Below are positions 4,647 to 54,437 of a stretch of 64,000 nucleotides of DNA, piece by piece. The translations under genes and the position numbers were made by a program. Source of the DNA: Lineolata rhizophorae (taxonomy: Eukaryota > Ascomycota > Dothideomycetes > Lineolatales > Lineolataceae); contig MU001676.1 in the NCBI GenBank assembly GCA_010093515.1, forward strand, positions 473,186 through 537,185, read 5' to 3'. The first letter of the stretch is position 1. Each line of letters starts with the position of its first letter. The notes under the pieces are model-generated. The model worked only from the letters and a program-made list of their open reading frames with translations, was not told where the DNA came from and did not search any database.

Positions 4647-6174
4647 TTAAACAACAACCCTCCTCAACCCTTCCACTCCGCCCAGTATCCGCCTCCCAGT
4701 AACCGGCTCCCTCCCAACCCCGCTCTCCCATCTTCCCTCCCTGCTCCTAGTCCCATCTTCCTCCACTCCCCACCCCTCTTCATCGTTTCCACCCCTGCCC
4801 TCCATAAAGGCTGCCTGCCGCTCATGGGTGCCCGCCACCCAGCGGTGCACACATCCGTAACAGTAGACGAGCCCGGCGGGCGTAGCCGTCGGAGTAACGA
4901 CCGGAGAAAGACAGATTGGGCAAAGCTCTGGCGACGGCGGCGGATAAGGAACGGTGAAAATAGGGAGAAGGGTGTTAGACGCGATGGGAGGAGTCGCGGG
5001 AGGGGTAGGTGGGAGGTTATCCGGGGCAGGTATTTTCTCAGCGGAAGCGAAGCTGTCGTCGGCCTTCCCCTTGCCCTTCTCCTCATCCGCCGCTTCTTCG
5101 CCGGACTTGGCCCGCTTCCTAGCAGCTAGCCGCTCCAGCCCGGATACTATCGGCGGCGGCAATTCAAGCCCCTCTGCAGCCTTGCGTGACAGCTGCCGCG
5201 CAAAGTCGGACGCGTGCCACCACTCGAGGAACTTGAGAGCGAAAATAGCCGTCGGCAGGACAAACTTCAAGCTAGACAACATCCGGGGGTACACCGCGTC
5301 TACCATCGTCCTCGGGTGGAGCAAAGACATATTCTGGCCGGGCCTTGCCGCAGGCCTCTTCCTGAGAGCCGCCGACGACGCCGCCGCCATCTCCTCGATA
5401 GCGCGGTAGTCAGCGGGGCCCATGCGCCGTATGCGCGTTCCGACCAGCCACAACAGCGGCGAGGCGTACTTTGTCTCGTCGAACAGGTACGCGAGCTGGA
5501 AGGCGAGGTGGGAGAAGTAGTACGCCGCGTTGACGGACGGGTATATCCTGCGCAGGAACCACTTGTAAAACGCGAGGACGCGCTCGCGGAGCGAGGAGCC
5601 GGCGTCCGCTCCACGGCCGCGGCGAAGCCCCGGGCCCCCGTCGTCCAGCAGCCCCGCGTGCGCCGCGTGCACCTCCCACCCCTCGTCCAGCTTGCGCTTC
5701 AGGTAGGGCACGCCGACCATGACGGCGAGGTTGGCCCAGACGTCGCGGTCGCGCAGGCGGAGGGCGTCGCGGACGGGGGCCGGCGCGGCCAGCTGCGCGC
5801 GCGGCAGCTCGCCGCCGCGCACGCGCAGCACGCGCTCGCGCTTGAGCCCGTAGAAGTGCTCGGTGAAGCCGCCGCCGTGGGTGCGCAGGTAGTGCCGCTC
5901 CACCAGCAGCGACAGCAGCGCGTACGCCTCGTCGAACGAGTTGAGCACCCGGATCAGGTACCGCGGGCGCCGGTGCGTCGCGAGCGCGAGCAGGTAGCGG
6001 AGCGATGGCGGGAGGAGCGCCGAGAGCTGCTGCTCGGAGAGGACCTCTGGACCAGCGGATTAGTTTGCGAGGGGCGGTTGGGCCTAGGGAGAGCGCGCGG
6101 AGGGAGGCCGACTTACCGAACAGGGAGGGCTTCAGCTCATCGAAGCCATTCTGGAGGTTGGTCATGAACTCCAT
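4647..6174 (-). CDS. PEX12: Peroxin 12, RING component of the peroxisomal import machinery
   Basis: Exons on the minus strand are 6174-6117 and 6046-4647 (70-nt intron), giving 485 residues. Pex12 forms, with Pex2 and Pex10, the peroxisomal membrane ubiquitin ligase that recycles the receptor Pex5. The N-terminus [20 protein letters not shown] is the family pattern and supports the spliced start. The Pex2/Pex12 membrane domain follows, with [28 protein letters not shown], then [20 protein letters not shown] and [12 protein letters not shown]. The C-terminal RING is degenerate ([15 protein letters not shown] at about 395-425), typical of Pex12, where only part of the zinc ligands remain. The tail after the RING is longer and more acidic than in yeast. 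Confidence 0.93.
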
Positions 6175-13461: not shown

Positions 13462-14710
13462 TAAGCTCGCGCCCCACAAGAAGAAGGAAGGCCTCGCGGG
13501 CGAATTTCTGAAGCTTGTCGCCAACCAATCTACCGGATCGTGTCAACTCTCTTCTACCTATCGCACACTGCCAACTACTAATCCGGGAAACGTCAGGTGG
13601 ATGCTGCACTTTTCCTCTTTTGCGTGCCTTTGCGTCTTTGCGGGTTCAAAGGGGAGGGAGGGAGCGATCCCTCAGCGCGGATATTCGTCTTGGCGAAGAG
13701 CTTTTTCTTTTCTTTCCTTGCTTTGAGCTAGGCTGGAGCTGGCGCAAGTCGTGGTTTTCGGCCGGGCGCCATTGTACTATCGCCAACCGGGAGTTTTCTT
13801 GCAAAGGGGACAACCGGTTGTGAGACTGAAAGAAATTAAATGCAGACACTTTCATTGAGAAGAATTTTGCTGGTGTGCGGAGTGCCACGGAAGCGAAAGA
13901 AGTGAAGGAAGAGGGGAGAGGGGAGTAGGTGGCTTTGGCATTCGAGAAGTAGCGGTGGAAATGGAGCCGGGACTTTTTGTGTTGGTGCCGGCCGAATTTT
14001 TTTTTTGGTGGCTTCTTGGCGCGTCGGGGGACCGCGCCGGGTTACTGTGGACCCGGGGCGCCCACGTCAGTCAACCCCCGCTAGACCCCCACCCTTCCGA
14101 CCAGGACGCCGTATGGCGGGGCAATGGGGTAGCTTCACACGCACAACTGAAAGTTTCGTTCTAGAGTACGCAGTCACTGTTCCTGCGATTGTATTCTTGC
14201 GGAGAATCCAATCATTATACCCCGTTTACATCAATCGATGACACAGCGAGTCGAAGAGAGCTGACTGTTTTCCGACTCCCAGCCCGACTATTCGACCTCC
14301 AATCGCCCACTCTATGACAGCCATTGCTGTGTGCAGCTGATCACACAGCTGAGTCGGCTCGAGTATACTGACTAGTGACTAGAGACGTGTTCAGTTGCTT
14401 GGCTCGAGCCTTGATACCTGAGCTGTTTGGGTCGTTTTGCATTTCGCAGGTATTACAGCAGCTCAGCTTAGACTGACTTCACATCAAGCTTGAGCGCACA
14501 ACTCACGAAAGACAACCCAACCACTTTAACCTTATCCTCTGAGGAACACTCGGCCTCAACTTCGCCTTCCCCTCGCACCTTCGGACCCTTTTCCACCACC
14601 AACACCGCCGAGCAATCATGGAAGAAAAAGCCCGCGGGGTGCCCTGAATGGGTGGGGTGCCGGGCTGGGACGGGTGCTGGGTTTGCGCGGGGTTTGATGG
14701 GCATGGTAAG

Positions 14711-14733
14711 TTTTTTTTTTTTTTTTTTTTTTT
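14711..14733. repeat. Poly(T) tract, 23 nt
   Basis: Uninterrupted T run seen directly in the sequence. Confidence 0.95.
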
Positions 14734-14776
14734 GGTGGGCCCGACGCGGGTCGATTCTTCTTTTTTTGGAGTGCGG

Positions 14777-14807
14777 TTTTTATTTTATTTTATTTTATTT
14801 TATTTTT
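14777..14807. repeat. (TTTTA)n microsatellite
   Basis: About five to six consecutive TTTTA/ATTTT units. Confidence 0.95.
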
Positions 14808-15243
14808 GGGCTGACTTCGAAACGCGGGCAGGGATGGTGCTGGCTCTGAAGTGCACGCGCCGAGGCGTTGACGAGCGTCATGAAGGGGGCGAGCAAAGAG
14901 CGACCTCGACTGGTTCCCGGAGTGCTTTTGGGCCTCGGAGGAGAGGCTGAAGAAGGCGGTCTTCAAGGGGAGGACGGACCTGGGAAGCGGGGGAGAGTCG
15001 GGTTGTGAAGGATGATGATTTGCAGTATAAAAACCTCTTCCTCCCCCACTCTCCCGGCTTGGACCTCAATTCATGGCATTTGCGCGTCGACTCCGTCATC
15101 AAATTAGTATTCCATGCTCTCTATATTTACATGTAAACCGATGTGCTTGTGCGTGAGAACGCTAAAAGTGTACGGAAATGGGACAGGAGAACGCCATGTT
15201 GCAATGCGCCGCGAGCGTGCCACGTACGCTTCGTTTCCACTCG

Positions 15244-16674
15244 TCAACTGGAGTCGATGTCCATGGCCAGGCGAGGAACGTAGAAGGTGACGTTCTCGAA
15301 GGAATAGAGCGCCTCGGACCCGAAGGCGACGTAGCCAAGGTGGTCGGACGCGTCGGGGCCGGTGTGATGCTTGAGCTCGTGGATCAGCGGCCCGATGTCG
15401 CCGATAAAGTCGGTGGTGTTGCGGTCGGCCAGCCAGGTGAGCACCGTCTGGCCGAGGGCGTTGTCGCCGTAGTAGAGATCGCTGCGAGGGGGATCAGCTG
15501 GCCGGGACAGTAGCAACAGGAAAAAAAGAAAAAGAAACATGTGAAGAGGTGAAGGGCTTACAAGCGGGTGCCGTTGATGGTGTGGTTGGCCTGCGAGCCG
15601 GCGGGCAGGCCGATGGGGTCGGTGGCGTCGCCCCAGGCGGCGAGCCACACCATGACCTCGTAGCGGGCCCGGGTCGGGTCGGCGGCGTCGGCGGCGTCGG
15701 CGGCCAGGAACATGTCGACGCAGACGTTGGCGTTGACCTTGGCGGCGCCGAGCACGGCCGAGTCGGTGTCGGCGTGCACGTAGCTGCCCAGGCCGTACGA
15801 CCACGACACGTCGAGCCGGAGGCCGTCGAGCCCGGCCAGCCGCACCGGGCCGTCGCCCGGCAGCAGCAGCTTCGCGTTCGGGAACGCGTGCACCGGCTCG
15901 TCGACCGGGCCCACCGGGTACTGCCAGGTCGCCGAGAAGCCGGCCGCGAACAGCGTGTCCTCGGACACGCCGCTGTCCGTCGTTATCTGCGTGCGGCGCG
16001 GCGGCCGCATGTCGTTAGCCGTCGGGCTGGCTGAGTCGCGGGCCCGGGGCCTTGAAATGAGGCTCCGCGCAGAGACGACCCCGGCCGGGCGCGGCGCTGT
16101 GTATGGATCGATGGTTTCGGGAAAGGAGGGAGGGGAGCGAGACAAACATTCATGCAGAGATCGCCCAGGTCGTCCGGGTCGCCCCACTGGTTGGGATTGA
16201 CTGCGGCGCGACGAAAACCGGGTTAGCCAAGGGCGGCGATAAGAGCTGCGGGCGAGGAAGCGCTAGGAAGCGCAGGGCAGACGCCGGCCAGGGGCTCCCT
16301 GGGCGTGGCGCGCGCGCCGTCGCCAATCGAAACGGCGCCCGGGCCGCGGGTCGCAGCCATCGCCGGCCGACTTCTTTTCCTGCCCGCGCGCGCGTGCGCC
16401 ACAACATGCTGCCGGCAGGGGGTTGGGGAGGTTCCCGCTCACAAACATATCGCCCCGGGAACGGCGTGATGCCGAAGGACTTCTGGCACCAGGTGTTCGT
16501 CTCGATGATCCGCCCGTCGCCGTCCGGGCCCGGGCCCAGCGGGTTGTTGGTCCCCGGCGCCGGCCGCCCTTCGCCGTGGAACACCTTCTGGTACTCGATC
16601 CCGATGTAGCCGCCCACCGTGATGGCCGCCGGCAGCACGAAGAGCCCGGCGCTGAACAGGGTCAGCAGCCACAT
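15244..16674 (-). CDS. Membrane-anchored GH12 family beta-glucanase
   Basis: Minus-strand exons 16674-16443, 16200-16148, 15986-15562 and 15481-15244 encode 315 residues. The N-terminus is a single hydrophobic segment (MWLLTLFSAGLFVLPAAITV, residues 1-20) followed by GGYIGIEY; it looks like an uncleaved anchor rather than a plain signal peptide. The GH12 jelly-roll follows: CQKSFGITPFPGRYVFNPNQ with WG, LCMN, FSATWQYPVGP, and LRLDVSWSYGLG. The nucleophile Glu is in YEVMVW (E205) and the acid/base Glu in FGSEAL (E293). GH12 enzymes cut beta-1,4-glucan, xyloglucan or beta-1,3/1,4-glucan by a retaining mechanism. The gene is divergent from the GT2 synthase at 17500, suggesting a joint role in wall glucan. 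The gtgagc donor at 16442 was chosen because it restores the VFNPNQWG join. Confidence 0.87.
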
Positions 16675-17499
16675 GGCTGCCGTTTCACGGACGGAGAGGA
16701 CGAGGAGACGAGGACGAGGACGAGGACGAGGAAGAGGAGCGGCAGCCGGTGAACGAACGAAATGATAAGCGGAGCTCGTCCGTCTGCCAAGTTCCGCGAG
16801 CGGCGAAAACGAGCGTGTGAATGCGGAGTGAGTGACAAGACGGTGCAGGCGCGGACAAACAGTGGGAGAACCGAGGGGACCCACCGGCGGGCTCGCGTGC
16901 CAGCCAGCACACGGCCAGCGCTGGACGGAAGCCCTCAATTATATCTCGTTGCGAGCCCGACCTACGGCGCCGAGCGCCGGCGCTGGACCACGACGACGAC
17001 GGCAACCTGCGTCACTCCCAATCTTAATCCCCTTTCCGGCCCTAGGCGGACCCGGCGGACCCGTCCCATCCCATGTTCCAGTTTTTCTTGTTGTGGCAAG
17101 CCGCCCAGTCCTGCTCGCCTGTCTCACCCTGTTCTTATCGCTGCAGCTCCGGCGCCATGTTGGCGCGCCAGAGATATGCAAGACCCGCATCCCCAGCCAG
17201 CCAGCCAGCCCGTCGTGCTCGCTGGCCTGGCATGATCCCATCCGAAAGTCCTACGGGCGCTTGCCTGCCTCCCCCTCAACCCAACCTCTTTTCCAGCCAT
17301 TCCCAAGGTCCAGTGTTTCGCTCGTTCGCTCCCATAACGTCCACGGTCGCTTCTCAGTAATCCGATACTGTGCTTTCGTGTCTGTTTGTTTGTTTTTCCG
17401 GCATCGTCATTCGTTTCTTGTTAATGCATCTGAACTCGTTATCATCGTCTTGGTTTTGACTTCAAAGATACCGCTGCTGTGGGCTATTCGTTCTGCCCA
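16675..17499. promoter_or_regulatory. Shared divergent promoter, GH12 glucanase / GT2 synthase
   Basis: 825 bp separate the two start codons. A TATAAT-like element in minus orientation lies near 16937-16949, toward the GH12 gene. The GT2 side is pyrimidine-rich with repeated CCAG units around 17195-17220. Open frames here overlap on both strands and show no conserved protein. Confidence 0.55.
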
Positions 17500-20057
17500 A
17501 TGGCGAGCATCCGACAAGTCGACGAGGATCCGAACCTCTCCGTCGAGGGGGAAGGTGACTCTATACAGGCAACCCGAAGGAGAGCTTCGACCGAAGACTC
17601 TTCTTCGGATTCAAAAAATCATTCCTTGGCATGGACAGAAGATACCGCCGTTGCTACAGAGCAATTGGATGCCATTGAAAAGGTGGAGCCGTTGGCAAAC
17701 ACCCGGCCAGAGAGTTACTCGGATGTCTACCGACCAACGGGGAGGCCTCCTCTTCGTAGCAACGGGGGCCACACCTCACTTCAAGATCTCTACGCCGAGA
17801 GTCCCGAAGCAACCCCTCTAGCCACTCCATCAGCTCCATGGCTCTCGGGTAGAGGCCATTCACCATCGTCCTCTGGGTTCACACCTACTCCTGCTGTATG
17901 TATATTGTCGTCAACCAGCCCCCCCCCCCCCTTTCCCCTTTTGTTCGGAAGCTCGTACTAACATACGTCGTTATTCCAGCGGAGTCAAGAATGCCTCAAG
18001 CCGCTGTTTCCGACCAGGCTGTCGTCCTATTTCGACCGGGATTGGGTGAAGGAGGGATACATTTCCCAAATCCACGACCGCGACGACCATGGCCAGTTAC
18101 CCAGCTGGAAACGATACTGCTACTACCTCGCGCCGTTCCTGGCCGTCGCCACCCTCGCGACCTACTGGATCTACTTCGCGCTTCGTATTCGTTTCGTGCT
18201 CGCCGCCCAGGCGAAATATGGCACGACGTACCCAATGGCGTGGGTGTTCATCGCAGTGGAAATCACCGTCGCTGTGCCCGTCTTCCTTCAAATGATCTGG
18301 GCGGTGTTCATCCTGAAACGGCGACACCGCCCTAAGCTTCGGCTCCTCGGAGACGATGTCCCCACCGTCGATGTGCTAATTACTTGTTGCGGCGAAGACG
18401 TGGACGTTGTCCTCGACACCACCCGGGCCACGTGCCACGTCGACTATCCCAGGGACAAGTTCCGGGTGGTCGTCTTGGACGACGGAAACGATGCGGAGCT
18501 CCGGCAGGCTGTGGAGAATATGCGCGAGATTTACGAGAACCTGCACTACCGGTGTCGGCCCAAGTACCCCGGCGTCCCGCACCACTTCAAGGCGGGCAAT
18601 CTTAATTACGGTCTCGAAGAGGTGCAGTCGATGCCGGGCGGTGCGTCGCAGTTCGTTGCGGCCCTCGACGCCGACATGATTCCGGAGTCGGAGTGGCTGA
18701 GGGCGATCATGCCTCACTTGCTGAAGGATTCGAAAATGGCGCTCGCGTGCCCGCCTCAGGTACGTGTATTTCGTTTAATTGGTTCGTCCAGGATGGCCTT
18801 CATGACTGACCGAAACTTCACAGCTGTTCTACAATGTCCCTCCTAGTGATCCCCTTTGCCAGAGCTTGGACTTCTTCGTTCACATTTCGGAGCCCATCAA
18901 AGACGCCCTGGGTGTGGCATGGTGCACCGGCTCGGGCTATATTGTCCGGAGAGACTATCTACAGGAGATTGGAAACTTTCCGACTGGATCTCTCGCCGAG
19001 GATGTGGCCACGTCCACTAAGCTCCTTGGAAAGGGATACAAAACGGCGTATATCCACGAGCCCTTGCAGTATGGCACGGTTCCTGACAGCTACGGGAGCC
19101 ACCTCAAGCAGAGGACTCGATGGGTAAGTGTCCCATTATTCAATCGGTCGGGACGAAAACCCGCTAACTTTCATTTGATAGGCTATTGGAACGGTGGAAA
19201 CATCCTTCAAACTCAAGTTCTGCTTGTACGGCGAGGATGTTCGCAAAATGACCGTGTTCCAGCGGTTCTCGAGCTTCACATATGCCGTCCTCAGCCTCTT
19301 CAACATCTTCCTCCTGCTCTCCCTCTTCGCGCTCCCCGTCGTGCTCATCTCGGGCAACGCCCTCGTCGCCTACGCCAACGAGGAGCAGCTCTTCTGGCTC
19401 ATCCGCGCCTGCTTCGCCACCCTCGTCACCAACCGCCTGTGCGAGCTCGTCCTCTTCCTGCCCGCCGGCTACGCCACCGGCCAGCGCGGCAGCCGCGCCC
19501 AGCTCTGGATGAGCCCGTACATCGCCTTCAGCATCATCCGCTCCTTCGTGCTGCCCAGCTGGCTCGGCGGCCAGAAGCAGGCCTTCAAGCCCTCGGGCTC
19601 GCTCAAGTCGGAGCTCAACGAGCGCGACGCGTCGGCCCGGGCGCCGCTCTTCCGCCGCCTCCGCGTCGTCGTCTGGAACTACATGGCCGGCTTCCACATC
19701 GCGTACGTGTACTTCGTGCTGGCGGCGGTGGCGCTGTCGACGATGCGCTGCGCCGCCGACGGCTGGAGCGTGCGCGAGCGCCTCGTCTGCCTGCTCACCC
19801 ACGCCTACTGGCCGCCCGCCGCCTGGATCGTCGTCGTCTCCGCCTTCTGGATCCCCGTCGCCTACGCCGTCGACCCGCCCGCCATGCCCGCCCGCGAGGC
19901 CCTGCTCGTCCGCGACGGCAAGACGGCCGTCGCCCGCCCCACGCCCGCCAGCAAGACGACCGCCTTCAGGCCCCAGACGGCGCTGTTCGAGCTCGAGTAC
20001 TTTGTCTCGACGGCGCTGACGGCGCTTGTGTTCGCGGCGTCGTTGTTTTGGTTGTAG
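17500..20057 (+). CDS. Cellulose-synthase-like GT2 glycosyltransferase
   Basis: Exons 17500-17895, 17980-18759, 18824-19123 and 19182-20057 encode 783 residues. This is a processive family 2 glycosyltransferase of the cellulose/mixed-linkage glucan synthase type, acting at the plasma membrane with UDP-glucose as likely donor. Residues 1-150 are a Ser/Thr-rich cytosolic tail; two membrane spans (about 176-203 and 215-243) precede the catalytic domain. The four synthase motifs are present: DDG (299-301), DAD (362-364), the catalytic Asp in LAED (449-452) and QRTRW (488-492), the last cut by an intron. At least five or six C-terminal spans follow. Known fungal relatives include Aspergillus fumigatus Tft1, needed for beta-1,3;1,4-glucan; orthology is inferred, not tested. 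There is no PilZ domain. Divergent GH12 partner upstream. Confidence 0.9.
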
Positions 20058-21754: not shown

Positions 21755-24465
21755 CTAATCAACCTCCTCGCCCTTCCCCTCACTCTGCTCCTCCCCTCCA
21801 ATCTCCAACCCCTTCATCCCACCCTCAGCCCCTTTACCGGGGTCCGCCACCGCCGCAGCGGCCTTCTTCTTCTTCTTCCTCCCCTTCTTCTTCCCCGCCG
21901 CGTCCTCGGCGCCCACCGGCGGCGCCTGCACCACCCAGCGCGCCACCGCGCGCGCCCGCTCCGACGAGACCAGATAGTCCGCGCCCTCGACATCCGCGGC
22001 GCCGCTCTCGACGAGCTCGTACCTCCGCGGCGCCGTCGTCGCGGTGCCGTTGCCCTGCGGCTCGGCGGCAGCAGCGGCCGCCCCATCACCCCGCGCCGCG
22101 CCGCGCGTCCCGGCCCGCTCCTCACCCTGGCCCTTGTCCTTTTCCGCGCCCTCCGGCCTACACAGGTCATCCCAGCGCCTCTCGAGGCCCAGGAAGTCGC
22201 CGGCGCGACGCAGGACGTCGACCCAATCGGCGCGGGCGCCGGACCGGGCCTCGACAAAGGCCGGGTAGCCGTCCACGAGGCGGGCGCAGCGCGCCGCGTT
22301 GAGGGCGTGGCGGCGCAGCTCCGCAAGCGACGTCTGCAACAGGCAGTGGGCGAGCAAGAGGGCGTGCAGCGCGTCCGTCAGGAGCGGGTGGTAGGTGACG
22401 GACTCGTGGACCCAGGGCGGCAGGGGCGGCTGCCGCTGCTGGCGCTCGTGCTGCTGGCCGGACTGATGGGCCGGGTCGAAGAGCGGGGTCGGGTGGTTGG
22501 GGAAGGCGAGCTCGTTGGCACCGACCGCTGGAGAGGGAGGGGAAGAGGAGGAGTGGGTGGAGGCGGTGATGGAGGCGGTGGCGAGGCGGGAGGTGGGGCG
22601 GTCGGGAAGGTTTGGAGGTGGTGATGGGGCGAAGAGCGCGGACACGTCGTGGACAACGGCCGGAGGAAGCTTCAACTTCTCATCTCGCATTATGCTGTCG
22701 AGATCGTTCTTGTGATGCGTAACCAGCGCGCCGGCGCTTGACGAGGTCGTGCCGTTATGAGGCGGTAGAGGCGCCTTGACTTTCTTGTCATTCGGAGCGC
22801 TAGACATGGCGCCAGCGACGGCGATTTCGTGCACCTGACGCAAGAATGTCTTGATGACCTCCTCAGGTTGACCGGGCGAATAGTCCAAGTGCGAGAGGAA
22901 GGCCATATAGTCCCGCACCGCACGCCTCGCGTTCATCTTGACCGCTTTGCGGGCCTCCAACTTTACGTGGCCAGCCTCGCGTGCGCTAGCGGTCATCGGA
23001 GGGTGACCGCTGACGGAGTCCGTCATCTGATCTTCTTGCTGGGAAGATTGTTCTTCGTGCGGTCCGTCCAACGACGCGTGGACATGCTCACATGCCATGT
23101 TGAGGTACACGTTTCCGCGTTGGAACAGCATCTGGGCCTCCATGCTAGTCGGCTGCTTCTCGTCCGGAATGGGACCGCTATCGTCCTGGTGGAACTTCCA
23201 AGCGTAGAACGGGTCGTGGTCGCCTTTGTAGCGGGCCAAAACTAGCTGGCCGGTCTCTGCCGGCGTTTTGATGTTATTATGCTGCTGTGACGCTAGATAG
23301 CGACACGCAGCCAGACCATCCGTGAGGTCTTTCGCCGCTCCGGCGTAGTCCCCCTTGAAAATTCGTGTTAGGGCGCGAGTTCGATATGGCGCCGGATCTC
23401 CGGGCCGATCCGCGATGAGGTCGTTGAGGGAAGTAAGAGGCGTGCATTGCGCCGTCATGCGGGAGGGTATCTTTTCGTGAAAGAAGTGAACGTAGCGTGC
23501 ATCGCGCACCGAAGAATCCGAACTGCCGCTGCCGCTTCGTTGCAGCACCAGGGCCGCCACGTCCTCGAGGGCCGACGCGCCCTGCATCGTCGCCACGCTC
23601 GCAATCACCTCGTCGACGTGGTACGCCGTGCTCAGCTTCTGGGCTGCCAGCTCGCGCATGCGCAGCTTTCTCTCCCGGCTCAGCTTCGCGCCACCACCGG
23701 CGCCGCCCGCACTGCCTCCGGCGCCCATGCTAGGCCCGCCGCTGGGTCCGCCTCCGGCGGACCAGTAGCCCAGGCCGAGGGCCTGGGCCGCCGCGTTGCT
23801 GCTGCTACTCCAGCGGCCATTGTAGGCGGACGGCGGGCTGGCGACGCCCGAGGCGGCGCGCACGGCGAGGTTAGTCGCGTCGTCGACGGCGCGGCGGATC
23901 TTGACGAGGTCGTAAAAAACGGCCGGGTCGATGGGGCGCGGACGCGGCGAGTAGTAGTTCGCGTTCGCGAGCGACTCGAGGATCTCGAGCGGAAGTTGCA
24001 GCCAGGGTCCGTGGAAAGCCGAGATGTAGCGCCAATGCCTAACGTCGCCGCTGTGTTAACCGAGTAGGTACCGTGCGAAAACCAGGGGGCGTGTGTACGG
24101 TGAAGGCGAGGGAAAGAGGAGGATATCGGGGCACGACTCGAGCGGTGCCGGTGCACCGCTGATGAAACGTCGAGGGGTTCTCTTTTCTCTTTTGGTTTTC
24201 TTGAAAGAACATACTTGTTTCGTGCAATTATGAGTTGAGTTGAATGCACGTCCGGCTCGAACGGCACCGCTTTGAGCCTGTCCGGGCAGCTCGAATCGGG
24301 CGTCGCCTTCGTTGGACCTGAAGGCGTCGTATCGGCGGGCACTAGCGGCGAACGTACCGCGTCTTGAGTCGCGATGGGCGGATGAGGCGGCGCCGTGGTT
24401 GTAGATGGGCGGCTACCCTCGTCGGTTCCGTCTTGCTGCTTGGCAGCCTTCTTCTTGTTGGCCAT
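21755..24465 (-). CDS. Large TPR-like fungal protein of unknown function
   Basis: Minus-strand exons 24465-24215 and 24038-21755 encode 844 residues. The start MANKKKAAKQQD begins a basic, Thr/Pro-rich N-terminus. After the intron comes KHWRYISAFHGPWLQLPLEI with LESLANANYYSPRPRPIDP, strongly conserved-looking, then a Gly/Ala/Ser-rich linker and helical segments with ALTRIFKGDYAGAAKDLTDG (TPR-like), MLFQRGNVYLNMAC, and RRAVRDYMAFLSHLDYSP. Near residue 700, HPLLTDALHALLLAHCLLQT and LRRHALNAARCARLVDGYPA form more helical repeats. The C-terminus is lysine-rich (KKKGRKKKKK). Such proteins are sometimes labelled histidine kinase group in fungal annotation, but no kinase motif is visible here. Another ATG seven codons upstream (24486) is possible. 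Confidence 0.82.
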
Positions 24466-33053: not shown

Positions 33054-33592
33054 TCACTCTTCCGCCAACGCCTTCCCCACCATCTTCCTCGCCTCCTCCC
33101 CCAGCTCCATCTCCAACGCCAACTCCCTCCCCCTCGGCGACATCTTCGGCCACGTCTTGCGCAGAATCCTCACCAACTTCTCCTCCCCACCCTCCTCCTC
33201 CCTCCCCTCCCCACCCCCCAACCCCTCCTTCCTAACCAACCCCTCCACCCTCCCCCGCCCCCCCGCACGCCCTCCCCGCCACCTCCGCCGCACGCCGCGC
33301 CGCCCCCCGCCGCCACGCCAGATACCCCGCGCGCGTCGCCGCGAACCCGTCGCGCTGCACCTGCCACCGGCGCAGGTGCTGCGCGCGCGCCGCCAGCCGC
33401 AGCGCCGGCGCCGCGGGCGCGCCTCCAGCCGCGCCGTCATGCGCCGCGCGTAGTGCAGCTCCGCGGGCAGCGTCGTCGGCGGCGTGGGGCCGAGCTGGTC
33501 GTGGTGGGGTCGGCGGCGTGGGCGGGGTCGAGGGCGGCGAGGGCGCGCGCGACGGCCGGGCGCGGCGGCGGGTCGGTGGTGGTGGTGGGCAT
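33054..33592 (-). pseudogene. DUF4202-like gene broken by frameshifts
   Basis: An ATG at 33592 starts MPTTTTDPPPRPAVARALAA, with LDPAHAADPT. The homologous continuation TLPAELHYARRMTARLEA lies in a second frame. RLAARAQHLRRWQVQRDGFA with ATRAGYLAW lies in a third, and VEGLVRKEGL then EEKLVRILRKTWPKMSPRGR with ELALEM returns to the second frame, ending at TGA 33054. The order matches DUF4202 proteins of fungi and bacteria, but the usual acidic core between the KEG and EEKL segments (a LEDVACLVFL-type stretch) is missing. At least three frame changes and this deletion suggest a decayed gene. Indel errors in very GC-rich runs are the main alternative. No splice sites fit the frame changes. Confidence 0.6.
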
Positions 33593-35561
33593 GGTTGGTG
33601 TCGGAGGGGGGCCCCGCGGGGCGTGTGTGGTGGAGGAGTGGTGGGCGTGGAGGGATTTTTGATCTGGGGTAGAGGAGTTGTTGTGTTCGGACGCTATATC
33701 GCGCTAGATGGCGGGGAGGGAGACTGTCGCGGGGCGGTTCGAGGGTTTTGCCGCGTCGAGATATTCGAACTGTTCGAGCTGTCACGTCGAAGGAATGTGC
33801 GATTAGGCGTTTCCGAGCTTTATGTTGCCGGGCTAGGACGGAGGGGTTGGCGCTAGGAGCGTTGAGACGAGTCCGCGGAGATGGTGTTTATCTATCGCTT
33901 CGCACGAACGCCACGGAATTACATGTACAATGAATGCATCCCAAATAACCGACGAAGAGTACCAGTCGATCTAATTCGCGGCCAACTGTGGAAGCATAAC
34001 TGACTTTTCAATATTAAGTGTAGCCACATGATCTCTCAATAAACTTAACCTGAGTCCTTGCTCCAGAGCTTCCGTCATCGCGCAGCCAGATCTTATCAGC
34101 TGGCCAGCTGCAGCCGACGCTAGCCAACCACGCACAAGGCAGTGGTTTGTACATACGACTTGCATCCAGTTCTTCCACCTCCGCACAGTCCCGCCCAACT
34201 GGACTTCCAACCGGTGCCGTACCACCTTCCTCACAACTACGAATGGAACGTGCCACATGTATCTGGGCACGACCCAACCAGACAGAGCGCGCGCCGGGCA
34301 TTTCCTCATCCGAGCGGCCGCTTTGAAACGAAAAGCGCGCGCACTTCTAGGCCAACCAATCCTCGTCCACGCTTATAATACGCAGATACAGCTCGAGCAA
34401 GCTGCTTCGGAACAAAGCTTGCCAAGCGGCTCCAAAACAACGGGCCGCAACCTCTAAATCCCTCCCATTCCTTTAGGAACCCAGAAAGACAAGCGCCAAA
34501 CTCTAACTAGCGCTCCATTCCCAGTGCGACACGCGCCGCAAGGCAGAGCCACTAAGCTACTTACGGAGACGTCACGTAGCCCATATAGGACATCTGTCCG
34601 CGTATACCGAACCGGATATGGGTAGAACGGCAGAACAATCGGGCGCTGTTTGCCGTGGTAAGACAACAAGCCCACAATCGCTGAAAGGAGCGGCCGGGCC
34701 TTGGGAGTCCTAGGTATTTGCGCTGTGCGGTACAAGAACGAGGGCGCAACCACTGTAGACGAACAGCGCAATGCACCGCAAACGATAGCAAGAGCTCGAT
34801 ATAATATCTCCGTGGCAAACACTTCCGAAGAAAGACTGTCGGATTTGTGACCAGCGAGAGCGGACAACAGAAATATATATTTTTCTAGCACCGCAAGTAG
34901 AAGAACCAGGAAGACGGAAAGAAAAGAAAGGAAGGAAGAAATAGGGTATTAAACGACATAAAAAGGTGCCACCAATTACACCGGATACTGGGAGTTGTGG
35001 TTGTAGTAGTTGAAGGTTTTCAAGCCATCGAGCTGTCCTTCTTTAGCTCGCTACCGCATACAGTCCCAAGGAGAAGCGACGGAATAAAGTGATGAAAATA
35101 AGTGACTGAAGCAAAAGGGCGCCCGCTATGCAGTAAATCGTACAAAGAAGTGAAGGTGGAAAAAAAAAAAAAAGAGGAGAGAGAAAGAAACAAAACCCAG
35201 AGAGGAAAAGCAGAAGCAAAATTGAGAAATAAGAATAGTCCATGCCTTGCACCCTTGCTGACACCAGCAGCAACATCTATATCCGGACCCCTAATCAAGG
35301 GAAAAAAAAAAAAAAAGAAAGAAGAAGAAAGGAAGAAGATAAAGAAAAAGCGCCCCTAGAACCTCCACGGTCCTAACCATATATTGCATTTCCATCAATC
35401 GTGTCCTTCGTTTCCCATGCATAACCCGCATGCTCCACCTATTTTCCGATCCCCTAGCCATCCCCCCTCACCCTCCACTCTCCCCGGCAAAATTAAACCC
35501 CAATAAGATGTGCCAAAAGGTGGAGGGAAAAAAAGAAAAAAAAAACAAAAAGGCCCAACCC
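33593..35561. other. Intergenic region, about 2.0 kb
   Basis: No conserved protein was found. Purine-rich and poly(A) runs occur at 35160-35350 and 35520-35550, near the 3' end of the downstream transcription factor gene. Confidence 0.5.
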
Positions 35562-45848: not shown

Positions 45849-48485
45849 CTGGCGAGCCGCCGCGCCCGGCGCTACGCTGGGTCCGAGCCGCGCGGGCGTT
45901 CCCGGCGGCGGGGCGCCCGGCGGCTGCGGCGTGCGCGGCGGCTGGCCCGGCGGCTGCTGCTGGGCCCCTGGCTGGGGGCTCTGCGCTTGGTCGTCGGAGA
46001 AGATGCGGCCGATGGTGGAGAGGGGCCGCTGGATGGAGCGCAGCAGGCCGGCCGCGACGTTGCCGTCGTCCGAAGCGGCCGACGCGTCGTCGGCCGACCG
46101 GTCCACGTCCGATGACAACCGGCCGTTGACCGGGCGCGTCGATAGCGAGCGCCGCGGCGTCGAGCGCTCGGCCTCGAGGCTGTTGCGCGGCGTCACTTCG
46201 GGGCGGGAGATGGAGGATTTCTCGGGGATGCGGTGCGGGGATGCGGTGCGGGTCTGGAAGGTGCCGGGTGGGAAGGGCGAGGAGGACGAGGAAGCTTCGG
46301 ACGCGTATTGTTGTTGTTGCCGCGCGGTGGTAGGGTAAGGTTCTTCAACCTGGGGCGGATGGCGCTCGGCGAAGGCGGATACGGCGGCTTCGACGTTCTT
46401 CTCGAAGTCTGCGTCGGATATTGTTAAGCTGGTGCGGTCGAGGTTCTCGATGAACTGGATGGCGGCCATCTGAATCAGAGAATAAATATGGTCAACGGAG
46501 AACATTATCTAACACCTAGCAGACTACTCCGACTACAAAAAGTTAAAGCGGCAGAGCCGTACCAAAGATGAAATGTAATACCCTGCCTCGCCGCCGAGCT
46601 TGTCTTGGTTGCGGAAGCGTAGGATGTACTGAACATTGGAAACCAGGTGGTCCGGATTCGCCTGAAGAACAGTGTAGATCAACAGAGGGACAAAAGAATC
46701 GGCGGACTGATCATGCTGTGCGTGCCGGAGAAACCCTGAGACGATGGTTAGCAGAAGGTCTCACACTAACCAAGAGCACAATCGTACATACCAAATATGA
46801 CTTTACAGCAGTTCAGAACGCAGATGACCTTGTCCCTGGGTGCTCGATAGCTTCTGATTTTGAGGAGTTCTGTGGCTGCGGTCAGCATTCGTCATGCGTG
46901 AATATCTTCACGCGAACAACATGCCTTGCTGAGCAAGCTTCAAAAACTTCCGTCCCTTGTCTCCAACGGCCCTGATATCCAAATGCTCTTCCTTAACCCA
47001 ACCATAAATCCGAACCTTTTGCGCCAAAACCTCATCGCGTTCGACATCCTCCTGATGCTGCCCTCGTCGGCCCGGACCTAGAGGAGAATGCGCACCCTTC
47101 CGTCGTCCCTTTCCAGGCAGAGGTTCCGGCGGCGGAATTGCGGGTGAAAATGTCTGCGTATACAATCGATTCATGACGAGTTTTTCCATGCCTTCCCTAG
47201 CATTATCGAACTCGGCGTCCGAGACCGTGCGCCAAACTTCGCATTGCGCCATCTTCTTGCTGATGAATTCCAGAAAGTCGCTGATAATCTTGACCTGCTC
47301 GTGAACCATCCATTGCTTCTTTCCAAATTCGAGCAGAAAAGACCTTAAAAACTTGGCAACCGGATCGGCCGTGCGATGCCGTAGTTGCTCTAAGAAGCGG
47401 TGGAAGTCGAAGGGCAAATCTGGTTCGGGGTCTGGTTCTGGCGGCGGAGGTTTGAAGATGGAAGATGGCGGTTTAGGAGAAGAAGTCGGCTCGGGTTGTT
47501 GACCTTGGGATTGTGGTGGCAATGAAGATGTTCTCGGGGGTGGGGATCGCATGGGTTCTCTCTCCGACTTCGTAGAACCGTCAAGACCGGTGGGGGAAGC
47601 CAGACCAGACAGACCGGCAGAAGATGAGATAGGTTCTAAACTTGACTTTCGAGGCGGGTGACTGTGTGGTGATCCTACCATAGGCCCTGCCATTTCCAGT
47701 CGCGGAGACATGATCTCGTCCATGCCCATACCACTTCTACCGTCTTCGAATTGGCCCATGATACTTTGGATTTCTGATCGAGAATCACCATCTTCAACGG
47801 CACCATCGTCTTCTTGGCCGCCCATCTTTTCGTTGAATTCGACTTCATTTGGTGTCGATGGGCCGCTACTGCGCGATATGAACTGCTTCCCAGGGCTGGG
47901 TGATCGAGGGGGAAACTGCTGGTCCGAACCGGTTGCTCCAAGGTACTTTTCGTCTTTAGGCGGTGGCGGTGGTGGAGAAGGGGATTTTTCGGGATAAGAG
48001 GGCGCAGGTGTCGGGTTGGAGGAGCTCTTCTCGTCGATAGAAAGATTTGTCGTCTGCTCCACAGCCTCTGCAAGGCCCTCGCCCTCCGCCGTGGCCCGCG
48101 TCTCTCCCTCCCTAGCGGGCTGGGACGGCGACTCGTCTAGTCGTCGTCGGCGTAGCAGCGAATCGCCATGAACAGCCACTGGTCCGGCGAGATCAGACCC
48201 TTCTTGACCATCTTGTTGGGGCCCATCTCCCGGGCTTTGGCCAGAAACAGGCGCTCCGTCACCAGACGGTCCAACCTCGGTGCCACGCGCCTGCGCATCT
48301 TGTCCTGCCGTCTGGATTTCTGGTTGGTTCCGCTGGTGGTGGTCCGCCGAGGTCTCCTTCTGCTGCTTTGTCTCCTCGAACACCCACTTCGACGTCTCCG
48401 CCGCTCCCTCCTCGCCCCTCACCTGCTCCCCCTCCACCGGCGTCGGATCCTGCACGGAACGCGGCACTTCGGATGAAGAAGTCAT
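45421..48485 (-). CDS. VPS9: Vps9-type Rab5 guanine nucleotide exchange factor with CUE domain
   Basis: Minus-strand exons 48485-46925, 46869-46792, 46735-46563, 46469-45598 and 45469-45421 encode 910 residues. Vps9 activates Vps21/Rab5 on endosomes and binds ubiquitin through CUE. Residues 1-350 are disordered and Pro/Ser-rich. The VPS9 domain (about 355-640) shows FHRFLEQLRHRTADPVAKFL, EGMEKLVMNRLYTQTFSP, KFLKLAQQELLKIRSYRAPR with DKVICVLNCCKVIF, and YYISSLMAAIQFIENLD. A linker with Q15 (45807-45851) leads to the CUE domain, HHVVVETLAGMFPGLDREVI then MKDGRVGLAVDACLAL, whose end is supplied by the last small exon. The first intron begins GC rather than GT; any GT nearby would break the conserved reading. 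Confidence 0.92.
45514..45534. repeat. (AACAG)n microsatellite in last VPS9 intron
   Basis: Four tandem AACAG units; on the gene strand this lies in the pyrimidine-rich part of the last intron, upstream of the acceptor. Confidence 0.85.
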
Positions 48486-49192
48486 AAGCCGGCGTACGCA
48501 GATCGGGGCGGTGTCGGCGGTCGGAAAGCGACTAGCTCCGGCGTCTTAGTTGCGGGGCGCAGTGGGCGCGGTGACCATGTGCCGACGACTTGGACGAAAC
48601 GGGACGGTACGAGGGGAGAGGCAGAGGGTGAGCGCGAAGCGTTCTCCGCGCGGGAGTTGAAGCGGAGTACGAAGGTGAGAAAGAGAGGTGTGAGAGCGGA
48701 AGAGTTGAGGAAGGAGGGCGGCGGGTCGAGCGTTGGGTTCGACCATCCGCTTCCGGGCATGACGATGTCACGGGCCACTAGCGTGCCTTCCCGCCCCGGA
48801 GGTGCTCACCGAGCTGCAACTACCTCGGGGGCGTGCACCACTCCACCCCGTCGCTGATTTCTCCGCACAGCCCGCCAGCGTTGATTTTACCTCAAGCCTC
48901 CTCCGACATTGCCTTTGTCGAATCTCTCTCGCTAATTTGCCAGATTTCTCGACCACGACTTGTCGGCCGGCGACCGGTCGGTGCTGTATTTTGAAGCCCG
49001 CCCAGCGCTTGCCCGGCCGGCCCAACAACCTGACCTTCAGGCAGCTCCTTCCCCGCCAGAGCCCCTGTTTAGCTGCGGCAGCTGCGCCTTCCGCAACCCC
49101 TCGCCCCTCGCCTCTCGCCCCTTCCTCGCCTCGCGCACCTACGTCATGCGTCGTGACGGAATGCGGAAAGCGCTGCAGCCTCAACTCTCGCC
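48486..49192. promoter_or_regulatory. Divergent promoter VPS9 / asparagine-synthetase-domain gene
   Basis: 707 bp between the two starts. No conserved coding sequence was recognised. GC-rich, with a pyrimidine-rich stretch near 48890-48960. Confidence 0.5.
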
Positions 49193-50970
49193 ATGTGCGG
49201 CATCTACGCCGCCATAAGCAAGCATCGTTATGCTCACCCCACCGATGCTGTTCGCGAACTGCTCGACAAGCGCGGGCCTGATACACAGACCCAACACGTC
49301 GACATTGAATCAACGAGTGCTGCCGGAACCGTGCACTACCTGTCGTTCCAGGCTTCCGTGCTCGCCTTAAGAGGCGACCATGTCGCCCGCCAGCCTCTTA
49401 GACACCCGGAGACCGGATCCGTGCTTTGCTGGAATGGCGAGGCCTGGGCCGCGTCCAACGTTCCCCTCCGAGGAAACGATTCCGAACACATCTTGAAGCT
49501 CTTTTCAGATGCTTGTAGTGCACCTTTCGATGAAGGGCAAGGACAATTTAACCAACGTATTCTACAAGCTATTGCGAGCATTCGAGGACCGTATGCGTTT
49601 GCGTACTATGACGTGCCTAATGGCAAGCTGTACTATTCTAGGGATTGCCTCGGGCGACGTTCCTTGTTGATCAACCGCTCAGACGACACCGGGGACCTAA
49701 TCCTGTCTAGTGTTGCGAATGGCAGCGACGCCACTAGTTGGTTAGAAGTTGAAGCTGCCGGTGTATACATGGTTGATTTGTCTGAAGCCAGTAATCAGTA
49801 TATAGTTCATTACGCGCCTTACAGCTACGAGGCCGATCGTGTCAGAGAGGTGACCGAAACTGCTGAAGGCTTAGTAAGTTTTCCGAAACATGGTCATCCA
49901 AAACTTGCTAACGGGTTCTGTAGGTCCTCCCTTACCCAAAACTAAACAAAAATTTGCCTAGCCATAGCAGCTTCAAGCTCAATCTCACGTCACCACACGT
50001 TGCCTCATTGGAAAGTCATCTCAGGGAGTCGATAGTGCTCCGTCTCCAGCCTTCTAGTCTTGGCGACCTTCAGACCGGCAACGTCGCCTCACCCAAACCT
50101 CGAATCGCCATCCTCTTCTCGGGCGGTTTAGACTGCAGCCTCCTTGCGCGTCTCGCTCACGACATCGTCCCTATCGCCGAGTCCATCGACCTCCTTAATG
50201 TCGCCTTCGAAAACCCACGCATTCAGAGATCGGCCCCCTGTTCCTCTGCACCCTACGAGACCTGTCCTGACCGCATCACGGCCCGTACCTCCCTTGCGGA
50301 GCTCCAGCGCATGTGTCCAGAGCGTCAATGGCGTCTCGTAGAAATCGATGTGCCCTACGCCGAAACGCTGGCCCACCGCCCCATAGTCATCGGCCTCATT
50401 CACCCTCACAACACCGAGATGGACCTTTCCATTTCACTAGCGCTTTACTTCGCCGCGCGTGGTGTCGGTACCATCACCACCGCCACGGACGCCGCATCCT
50501 CCACGCGTAATCCATACGCCACGCCTGCCCGTGTACTTCTCTCCGGGCTCGGTGCTGACGAACTTTTCGGTGGGTACCAGCGGCACGCGCTCGCTTTCGC
50601 GCACGGCGGATTTGCTGCCTTGGCGGATGAGCTCGACCTCGACATCTCCCGCCTCGGGAAGCGCAACTTGGGCCGCGACGATCGCGTGCTGAGCCATTGG
50701 GGCAAGGAGGTGCGGTATCCGTACTTAGACGAGGGCGTGGTGGGCTGGGCGATGCGTGCGAGGGTGTGGGAGAAGTGCGGGTTTGGCGCTGAGACGAGCG
50801 GCGAAGATGGTGATCTGTCGTTGGGGCCGGAGAAGAAGGTTCTGAGGCTGGTGGCGAAGCGGTGCGGCTTGCAGATTGTGGCAGCTGAGAGGAAGAGGGC
50901 GATTCAGTTTGGAGCTAGGACGGCGAAGATGGAAACGGGGAGGATGAAGGGAACACAGATCCTGAGTTGA
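49193..50970 (+). CDS. Asparagine synthetase domain protein (ASNSD1-like)
   Basis: Exons 49193-49873 and 49924-50970 encode 575 residues. The N-terminal class II glutamine amidotransferase domain starts MCGIYAAI with the nucleophile Cys2, and includes RGPD, WNGEAW, and IRGPYAFAYYD with DCLGRRSLL. The C-terminal synthetase-like domain has the PP-loop IAILFSGGLDCSLLA, NVAFENPR, ALYFAARGVGT, VLLSGLGADELFGGYQRH and VRYPYLDEGVVGW. Overall length and layout match ASNSD1 rather than bona fide asparagine synthetase, which is shorter in the first domain and has SGGLDSS. The reaction is unproven in this family. The 50-nt intron is phase 0. The gene is divergent from VPS9. Confidence 0.9.
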
Positions 50971-51785: not shown

Positions 51786-54437
51786 TCATCCCCCACTATG
51801 CCGTCTTGAATTCCGCGAAAATATCCTCGACAGCTTCCGTCCCGACTCGTTGCCCCCATTCGCCGACGTCCCAGACGTGCTGCTGCTATCCCTCCGTTTA
51901 TGCGAGGTGAAGCTGTCCTTCCGCGGGCTGCCCGGCAACAGCGGCGAATGCTGCTGCGCTCCGCCGCTCCCGCCGGCCAGCGGCAAATTGTCGTAGTCCC
52001 TCGCGCGCCTTGGGAGCGGGGCCCCCCGCGGCGCGGCGCCGTACTCGAGCAGCAGCGCGACGAAGCGGCGCCGCTCGCGGTCGCACGGCTTGCTGACGGC
52101 GAACCAGAGCGGGGTGCGGTTCGCGATGTCGAGCTTGTTCGGGTCGGCGCCGTGCTGGAGGAGGACTTTGGCGCTGTCGTAGAGTGTGAGGTCGGCGCAG
52201 TGGTGCAGGGCCGTCTTCTTGGCCGGACAGGTGGCGTCGACGTCGGGCGCGGCGAGGTCGGCGCTCACGCCGCTGCCGTCGCCGCCGCTGATCTCGCTGC
52301 TCCCGCTGCCGCTGCCGCCGCCCCCGCCGCTGCCGTTGGCGTTGTTGTTCGCGTACGTGTAGAGCAGCTGCTCGAGGATGTCGGTGGCGTTGTTGTGCGC
52401 TGCGTGGTGCAGCAACGTCCAGCCGGCGTAGTCGCGCACGCGCGGGTTCGCGCCGTACCGTAGCAGCAGGCTCACGACGGTAGGCCGGTTGCGCTCGACA
52501 GCCAGCAGGAGCGGCGTCGCCTTGTTCTTGTCGGTGGCCTCGATGCGCGCGTCCAAGCCCAGCAGCGCCTGGCAGAGGCGGTAGTTGCCCTCGGCGGCGG
52601 CGCCGTGCAGAAAGGTGCCGCCGGCGAGGGCGGAGCCCTGCGCGGCGTGCGCGTTGATGTCGGCGCCACCCGCGACCAGCTTGCCGACGGTGGCCTCGTC
52701 GCGCGAGTACATGAGCGGCGTCCTGCCCTCGGCGCTGAGGCGGTTGACGTCGTCCACCTTGGGCAGCAGGTTGCCGATCTCGTCCTGGTCGCCCGACTCG
52801 ACGGCCAGCAGGAACACGTCGAACGGGTCCACTGGCACGGGCTCCTCGACGCTGCTCGTGTCGCCGTCGGGCCCCGCGTGGAAGAACTGCCGCCGGTACC
52901 CATCCGCCAGCACGTGCCGCCCGCGCTGCTCGTAGATCTGGATCAGCGTCCGCACCGACTCGACGAGCGAGTCGTCCGGCCGCCGGCTCTGGGGACCCGA
53001 GGCCCCGCCGAGCAGCCGGTAGCGGATGTTGAAGGCACGTTTGGCGTAGCGCTCCGCCTCGACGAGGTCGCGGTCCTCGTGCGCGGAGCCGCCGCCCTTA
53101 GCGCCGTCGCCCATGCGCGTGACGAAGTGGTCGTGGTGGATCTTGGCCAGCAGGAGGTTGTGCGTTGAGCGTTCAAGGTTGCGCGCTGCGTCGGAGTCGT
53201 CGAGAGCGGCACTGCTGGCGCCGGCACCGCCGTCTTGGGTTGTCGCTGTCGGCGGCGTCGTCTGGAGTAACTCGTGCAGGATCTTCTTAGCCTCGGACCA
53301 GTGCTTCAGCCTCCAGTACGTCTCGGCGAGCATCTGCTGCAGCCTCGTTTTGCCCTCGTACGGCGTCCCGTGCAATTCTTCGCGCTCCTTCACATGGTTG
53401 AGCGCCTCGATCAGGCTCTTCTCGGCGCGGACGAAGTTCTCGGCCTTGAACTCGCTCTCAGCATGGTGGATAAAGTCGCGGATCAGCCTGTCGAGGATCT
53501 CGGGTGGTGTGGGTTCTTCGAAGTCGATGTTGGGGTTCGTCGGCGGGTCGAGGGGGTCCTTGTGTCCCAAGATTGGGACCGTAGCGTTGCTGGTATTTCT
53601 TTGATTTTCGTCCTCGCTGTCGCCGTGGTCCTCCTCGTCGCCGCTGAACTGCTCGATATTGTTGCCGCCCTCCAGCAGCGTCTGCCCGTCGGGGTCGAAC
53701 TCCGATCCGTACGTCGTCCGCACCGTTTGTGCCGTCCTGATGGCGAGCTCGAGAGCCTCAAGACCTTCCGAGCCATCCTCGACGTCTCCTTCCGCGGTCA
53801 AGTTTCCCAATTGACTTGGGTCGAAGCGAGCAAGAGCATCGAGTCTTTCATTGGCCCGCACGATCCTCCGGTCCAACCGAACTAGGTACCGCAAAACCTC
53901 CGAGTGGTTTACGCTGAGGACTCTTCGCGTTTCCGCCTGCTCGACGCTATGACGATTAGTATGTGTTGCTCTCACTCTAGTCATGAAGTCCACTTACAGT
54001 TGTAATGCCCCCAGTGATGTTTGCAACGCGGATATCTGGGCATCCAGATCGCCAAGCAACCTGTTGAAGATAGGCTCCCGCAAAACCAACTTGACCCTCT
54101 CCGTAACGTTCTGCGAGAATGGCGCCGTTGAAAGATCGCGCGTGCCCCAAAGCCTCTTATCGATCTTCAAGAGGATCTGGCTACTGGCCTCGACTGACTC
54201 CTTAATGCGAGCCTCAATGTCTGTCTCAACTCTCGACGGCCCATCGCCTTGACGGTGATGCTGGCGACGATGAATGACGCTCTGAACGTCTTGCAATATG
54301 TTATGCAGATTGCGAATCCGCCGATACAGCTTCTGCGCAGTCTCATGGGCGTGTCGTACATTGCGGAAGAACTCAACGGCTCGTATGGCCAGGTCTCCCA
54401 GCTGTATGGCGGCGCCAATGGTTTGTAGCTCCGCCAT
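51786..54437 (-). CDS. Ankyrin-repeat protein with N-terminal helical domain (866 aa)
   Basis: Minus-strand exons 54437-53998 and 53946-51786 (51-nt intron). The N-terminal MAELQTIGAAIQLGDLAIRA region is the helical domain found at the start of many fungal ankyrin/NLR-like proteins. An acidic linker and TPR-like helices follow (EFKAENFVRAEKSLIEALNH, then LQQMLAETYWRLKHWSEAKK and ERYAKRAFNIRYRLLG). Ankyrin repeats occupy about residues 500-770: EGRTPLMYSRDEATVGKLVA, GGTFLHGAAAEGNYRLCQAL, NKATPLLLAVERNRPTVVSL, AGWTLLHHAAHNNATDILEQ, KTALHHCADLTLYDSAKVLL and NRTPLWFAVSKP. A Gly/Ser-rich insert splits the last repeats. The C-terminus is basic and Ser-rich. No NB-ARC or NACHT ATPase motif is visible. 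It is probably a scaffold or signalling protein; function unknown. Confidence 0.88.

Follow-up and report, generated by a model that had tools for sequence, protein, structure and literature searches.

Conserved pairing of a Tft1/CelA-type synthase gene with a gene for a putatively membrane-anchored GH12 enzyme in Lineolata rhizophorae

We analyzed a 64,000-nucleotide stretch (the window, within contig C7) of the 31 Mb genome of Lineolata rhizophorae, an ascomycete of the class Dothideomycetes. In the window, a gene for a cellulose-synthase-like GT2 protein stands head to head with a gene for a GH12 protein. An earlier, sequence-only reading had proposed that these two genes form a make-and-trim glucan module. 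We consider it fairly likely that the two genes make up a conserved glucan module of Pezizomycotina, in which a Tft1/CelA-type synthase works together with a membrane-held GH12 enzyme that would trim or release the nascent glucan. The proposal is supported by the conserved adjacency of the two genes, by the conserved N-terminal anchor of the GH12 protein and by the kinship of the GT2 protein with Tft1. Computation shows the pair and its conservation, the intact active-site residues, the GH12 fold and the conserved hydrophobic helix; an uncleaved helix, its topology, the action of GH12 on the GT2 product, the polymer itself and a contact between the two proteins we infer.

Conserved adjacency of the GH12 and GT2 genes

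The gene models at the locus are as follows.
15244..16674, minus strand: GH12 gene; exons 16674-16443, 16200-16148, 15986-15562 and 15481-15244; 315 amino acids
16675..17499: intergenic region of 825 bp between the GH12 and GT2 start codons, the genes being divergent (head to head)
17500..20057, plus strand: Tft1/CelA-type GT2 gene; exons 17500-17895, 17980-18759, 18824-19123 and 19182-20057; 783 amino acids

These models confirm the divergent arrangement and the distance between the start codons given in the earlier reading. Each spliced model is 100% identical over 100% of its length to an NCBI protein of L. rhizophorae (P0001 for GH12 and P0095 for GT2). The genome was searched by family and by protein, exon by exon, and the best candidates were scored. 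A second GH12 gene was not detected by these family and protein searches, which a very divergent copy could escape. Likewise, a second Tft1-type GT2 gene was not detected genome-wide, the next GT2 match being 25% identical (E 3.3e-7). The broad profile PF13632 had 13 matches in the genome, one of them in this GT2; other GT2-superfamily genes are therefore present. The only GH12 gene detected in the genome adjoins the only Tft1-type gene detected.

Absence of the adjacency from every relative had been named beforehand as a result that could refute the module. Adjacency was judged from the locus tags and contig sizes in lists of GH12 and GT2 homologues, and consecutive tags were assumed to mark neighboring genes, as is the usual convention. 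The lists comprise the best 120 of 581 matches for GT2 and the best 120 of 188 matches to the GH12 profile; the absence of a species from them means little. We compared 52 GH12 prefixes with 44 GT2 prefixes, and 11 were common to both. This comparison omitted one Cosmosporella GH12 name (which has another format), the second names of rows and the second tag of Penicillium longicatenatum. The GH12 and GT2 tags were consecutive in ten of the 11 assemblies with a shared prefix, namely those of Meristemomyces frigidus, Rhinocladiella mackenziei, Thermomyces dupontii, Exophiala oligosperma, Phialemonium thermophilum, Paecilomyces lecythidis, Stylonectria norvegica, Cladophialophora psammophila, Penicillium taxi and Penicillium angulare (counted once, via N7456). 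Both Phialemonium genes lie on 15,790 bp. For Paecilomyces lecythidis the tags are consecutive but the longest-contig values are unequal (764,635 and 687,211).

In six further species, for which tags were not available, both genes lie on contigs of equal size: Aulographum hederae (964,120), Rhizodiscina lignyota (4,063,048), Trichodelitschia bisporula (2,035,263), Niveomyces insectorum (451,724), Colletotrichum chlorophyti (236,250) and Sodiomyces alcalophilus (11,072,988). Equal contig size is weak evidence of adjacency on the long contigs, but it is not weak on those of 236 kb and 452 kb. Verticillium albo-atrum, Exophiala dermatitidis, Exophiala viscosa, Fusarium nematophilum and Trichoderma asperellum occur in both lists and were not counted, because their entries come from different assemblies or mixed clusters. 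Thus, the adjacency is conserved, by consecutive tags in ten assemblies and by equal-sized contigs in six species. With the tags consecutive, we reject local coincidence as an account of the pair. If chance neighbors occur at 2 in 10,000, a rate that is assumed, the probability of ten consecutive pairs in 11 is about 1e-36, for species that are related to one another. We take the paired species to span Dothideomycetes, Eurotiomycetes and Sordariomycetes. Therefore, the pair probably dates back to the common ancestor of these three classes, unless it moved between lineages.

Trees of the GH12 and GT2 proteins were compared for 18 paired species. In both trees Dothideomycetes are set apart (support 100/99), and Eurotiales group with Sordariomycetes and not with Chaetothyriales. 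A clade of Chaetothyriales and Eurotiales is rejected by the GT2 data from the 18 species (approximately unbiased test, p-AU 1.2e-145); the tendency in the GH12 data is also against it (p 0.06 with 18 rows and 0.029 with 51 hand-chosen rows). Because this clade was picked after the trees had been seen, the result is only a hint, from sequence comparison, that the two genes traveled together in Eurotiales or that ancient paralogues are mixed in. Patristic distances in the GH12 and GT2 trees are correlated (r 0.76), which shared descent alone could yield.

Penicillium longicatenatum has two anchored GH12 members under one tag prefix (P0227 and P0256; N7484_004469 and N7484_010042). Therefore, not every member of the subfamily can adjoin a single GT2 copy.

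The synthase and the GH12 enzyme domain

The motifs of a processive synthase, which the earlier reading had listed, are all present in the GT2 protein.
18478..18486, plus strand: DDG motif, residues 299-301; DD[GA][KRGND] in 112 of the 120 listed relatives
18667..18675, plus strand: DAD motif, residues 362-364; DADM in 120 of 120
18995..19003, plus strand: AED motif, residues 450-452; AEDVATS in 118 of 120
19109..19123, plus strand: QRTRW motif, residues 488-492; QRTRWA in 119 of 120

The protein matches Pfam Glyco_trans_2_3 with 68.9 bits (cut-off 27) and has about six hydrophobic passes. It is 58% identical over 87% to the Aspergillus fumigatus member (P0135). We take P0135 to be Tft1, as A. 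fumigatus has a single such protein; the match is made by inference and not by accession. With homology over the greater part of its length, the motifs D, DAD, ED and QxxRW and more than one membrane pass, the Lineolata GT2 has the features of the Tft1/CelA family, and the kinship with Tft1 claimed earlier holds. A. fumigatus Tft1 and Aspergillus nidulans CelA belong to the same family over most of their length and carry the same motifs.

A. fumigatus has a single protein related to plant CSLF/CSLH, namely Tft1, with seven predicted passes (Samar et al., PMC4344333). As a fungal synthase of mixed-linkage glucan, Tft1 is backed by a deletion: in the deletion strain, beta-1,3;1,4-glucan was completely lost (PMC4344333). 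For Neurospora, CPS-1 and NCU03240 are the candidates named in a review (PMC7997180). In the case of celA, the A. nidulans orthologue, the neighbor that is described, on one side, carries a DUF3431 domain (PMC5519750). This neighbor, ANIA_08443, is a predicted membrane protein with its C-terminus outside, and deletion of celA raised its level about 429-fold; the authors allow that insertion of the marker may be the cause (PMC5519750). The terms "GH12" and "endoglucanase" are absent from the main texts of the A. fumigatus Tft1 and A. nidulans CelA papers. A literature search on the tag of the A. fumigatus neighbor gave nothing beyond the Tft1 paper.

In the GH12 protein, GH12 is the only Pfam family at E values up to 0.001 (Glyco_hydro_12, PF01670; 60.9 bits, cut-off 27; residues 75-309). 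The two catalytic glutamates lie on a GH12 beta-jelly roll, and the spliced model retains both of them, as had been read from the sequence.
15657..15659, minus strand: codon of E205, catalytic nucleophile position (RYEVMVW), aligned with GH12 structures
15313..15315, minus strand: codon of E293, acid/base position (FGSEA), aligned with GH12 structures

Conservation was measured in 108 relatives of 295-400 amino acids, retained from 168 sequences; this length filter favors complete proteins. P0005, a model without the NPNQ segment, was excluded by hand, and the other 59 were outside the length range, among them Trichodelitschia P0020, the annotated model of which has no N-terminus. E205 and E293 are invariant (108/108). 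H128 is also found in all 108 relatives, VHA in 107 and the PVHAF stretch in 104. The fold and the catalytic pair are those of other fungal and oomycete GH12 enzymes (Cel12A, XEG), and identity to the best 21 structure matches is 22-28%. In contrast to Cel12A and XEG, the Lineolata enzyme has an N-terminal hydrophobic helix, a linker, the PVHAF stretch and, near residues 164-178, an additional loop. This subfamily loop is absent from the aligned GH12 structures (two in one alignment and five in another).

Many public names in the anchored subfamily read "xyloglucan-specific endoglucanase" or "endoglucanase cel12A". The xyloglucan-specific labels may mislead, as several species that carry them keep the gene beside GT2. 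A literature search for a motif that separates xyloglucanases from glucanases gave no paper.

A conserved hydrophobic N-terminal helix in the GH12 subfamily

The sequence-only reading had described a hydrophobic anchor at the N-terminus of the GH12 protein in place of an ordinary signal peptide. The hydrophobic stretch is real, and it is conserved across the subfamily; it may stay uncleaved, as its conservation suggests.
16579..16674, minus strand: N-terminal hydrophobic helix, codons 1-32; family pattern P15, T19, G21xxxG25 and R/K30 (K30 here)

Residues 3-21 have a mean of 2.02 on the Kyte-Doolittle scale, and in the predicted structure a helix runs across residues 2-32. All 108 relatives have such a hydrophobic stretch at the N-terminus. 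P15 is invariant among them (108/108), and G25 is kept in 100, L23 in 95, T19 in 94 (Ser in 13) and G21 in 93. A pair of small residues at positions 21 and 25 (small-xxx-small) is found in 107. Only one of the 108 has K, R, D, E, H, N or Q anywhere in positions 9-26. The N-terminal flank of the helix is more positive than the other flank in 95 relatives, equal in 11 and less positive in two, and the glycosylation sequon at residue 95 occurs in 95 of the 108. The helix, the flank charges and the sequon agree with a single-pass anchor and a catalytic domain that would lie outside. When the set was reduced to sequences less than 70% identical to one another (n=56), P15 was found in all 56 and G25 in 53. 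The mean entropy is 1.47 bits for the anchor, 2.42 bits for the linker and 1.59 bits for the catalytic domain; the anchor is thus about as conserved as the enzyme domain, which fits a permanent anchor. The pattern of conservation as a whole fits that expected of an uncleaved, functional type II anchor. We propose that the GH12 protein is probably tethered to the membrane by this helix.

The motifs in the helix suggest a protein-protein contact through it. Conservation on one face of the helix was tested in three stretches, where 854, 1737 and 1887 of 20,000 shuffles reached the observed value, a result that is borderline at best. In the same test of the anchor helix, a 180-degree period scored higher.

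Explanations for the gene pair and its relation to known systems

On the explanation that we prefer, the GT2 protein, in the plasma membrane, would polymerize and export a beta-glucan; the beta-1,3;1,4-glucan of the wall is the likeliest product. In the GH12 protein, a type II membrane enzyme on this view, a single N-terminal helix would escape cleavage, and a flexible linker (about 25 residues) would join it to the GH12 domain outside the cell. Beside the synthase, the enzyme would attack beta-1,4 bonds in the glucan as this emerges, and so trim the chain, release it or clear stalled chains. By analogy, this role may resemble that thought for KORRIGAN and BcsZ in cellulose synthesis. In Venturia effusa, the lone exception among the 11 assemblies with a shared prefix, the two genes are 12 tags apart, on contigs of equal size.

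A different explanation is that the GH12 protein is a nutritional enzyme tethered to the cell surface, a xyloglucanase or endoglucanase acting on plant walls, and that it came to lie beside GT2 by an ancient accident, the gene order having been preserved by a promoter region that both genes share. The sequence and structure matches include GH12 xyloglucanases, many of the public names are xyloglucan-specific, and the habitat of Lineolata is mangrove wood. However, the adjacency is kept in three classes, including fungi that are not known as plant-wall eaters: Niveomyces is insect-associated, Meristemomyces is rock-inhabiting, and Exophiala and Rhinocladiella are black yeasts. In addition, this gene is the sole GH12 detected in the genome, and a conserved anchor would be odd for a foraging enzyme. 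We therefore regard a nutritional role as unlikely. A transglycosylase that acts on the GT2 product and grafts nascent mixed-linkage glucan onto other wall glucans seems slightly less likely again. GH12 enzymes are retaining, that is, they keep the anomeric configuration. Therefore, the chemistry would allow the chain to be passed on to another glucan just as well as it would allow hydrolysis. The invariance of both catalytic glutamates and H128 and the near-invariance of VHA are compatible with such an activity, and the loop at about residues 164-178 could alter the use of acceptors.

The explanation to which we give least weight, and which we think improbable, is that the N-terminus is a signal peptide of the usual kind, though an odd one, so that the enzyme would be secreted and the two genes linked by co-regulation only. 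The helix does begin at residue 2, as in signal peptides, and there is almost no cytosolic tail. In contrast, 107 of the 108 relatives have at least 18 residues (9-26) free of charged and strongly polar side chains, and a proline within this stretch is invariant. Moreover, signal peptides as a rule diverge, whereas this stretch is conserved about equally to the catalytic domain.

KORRIGAN has a catalytic domain of family GH9, and CcsZ, the cognate hydrolase of the clostridial cellulose synthase, belongs to family GH5. The KORRIGAN (KOR1)/CESA system of plants pairs a single-pass anchored endoglucanase with a cellulose-synthase-type GT2, as is proposed here for GH12 and GT2, and the transmembrane domain of KORRIGAN is required for its interaction with cellulose synthases (PMC4226561). 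The cytosolic tail of KOR1 has about 69 residues, judged from construct boundaries (PMC4226561). In contrast, the tail of the Lineolata GH12 would be a few residues, and its catalytic family is GH12. The two Lineolata genes are adjacent. Synthase and endoglucanase are encoded together in bacterial cellulose operons with BcsZ and in the CcsZ system, as in the Lineolata pair, and like these accessory cellulases the GH12 protein is encoded next to the synthase. The bacterial enzymes differ in their GH family, and BcsZ is putatively periplasmic and not anchored. BcsZ is a family 8 cellulase that lowers cellulose output in Salmonella (PMC5070118). Pfam shows neither a GH9 nor a GH8 or GH5 catalytic domain in the Lineolata protein, only GH12. 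Therefore, judged by its domain content, the Lineolata GH12 is a member of neither the KORRIGAN nor the BcsZ family.

The closest prior account is a survey of human-pathogenic fungi, in which GH12 is counted with the glucanases that act in remodeling wall glucan, and CelA is given as a mixed glucan synthase (PMC5872309). Two Cryptococcus species in it have neither GH12 nor CelA (PMC5872309). Thus, a service of GH12 to the fungal wall has already been proposed (PMC5872309); the accessible portion of that survey does not mention the adjacency, the anchor or a functional link between GH12 and CelA. We did not meet the conserved pair and the conserved anchor in the literature searched. No description of the GT2-GH12 pair was found in titles and abstract openings, a search in which subscription journals were thinly covered, so that an earlier mention is possible.

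No third member of the module was seen around the pair: in a Pfam scan of 20 frames of at least 180 codons, a part of the frames in the window, no other carbohydrate enzyme was found. Eleven of these frames had no family. The rest matched Pex2/Pex12, AAA, DUF4202, Zn-cluster (two frames), DUF5601, asparagine synthase, ankyrin and, below the cut-off, MacB. The frames with the following Pfam matches were located.
4650-6059: Pex2/Pex12-type peroxin
33057-33887: DUF4202
46911-48545: DUF5601
49924-50967: asparagine synthase
51789-53993: ankyrin repeats

An open frame of 766 codons (21755-24055, minus strand) lies tail to tail with GT2; it has no Pfam match and shows TPR-like stretches by eye. T-rich simple repeats (a T run, then TTTTA units) occur at about 14710-14810, past the 3' end of the GH12 gene.

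We tentatively extend the module to an ancestral complex of filamentous ascomycetes, in which a Tft1-type synthase would bind a dedicated GH12 enzyme through the conserved transmembrane helix, and the chain would be cut or grafted as it emerges. Such a complex would be a separate invention of the principle behind KORRIGAN, made with an enzyme of another family, and in some lineages it would have been moved or lost as a whole. For plants and bacteria, it has long been asked why a cellulose-type synthase should require an endoglucanase. A conserved two-gene system in fungi would be a genetically simple third case beside them. Moreover, if the two genes do form such a module, a group of proteins, many of which are labeled xyloglucan-specific, would shift to wall building.

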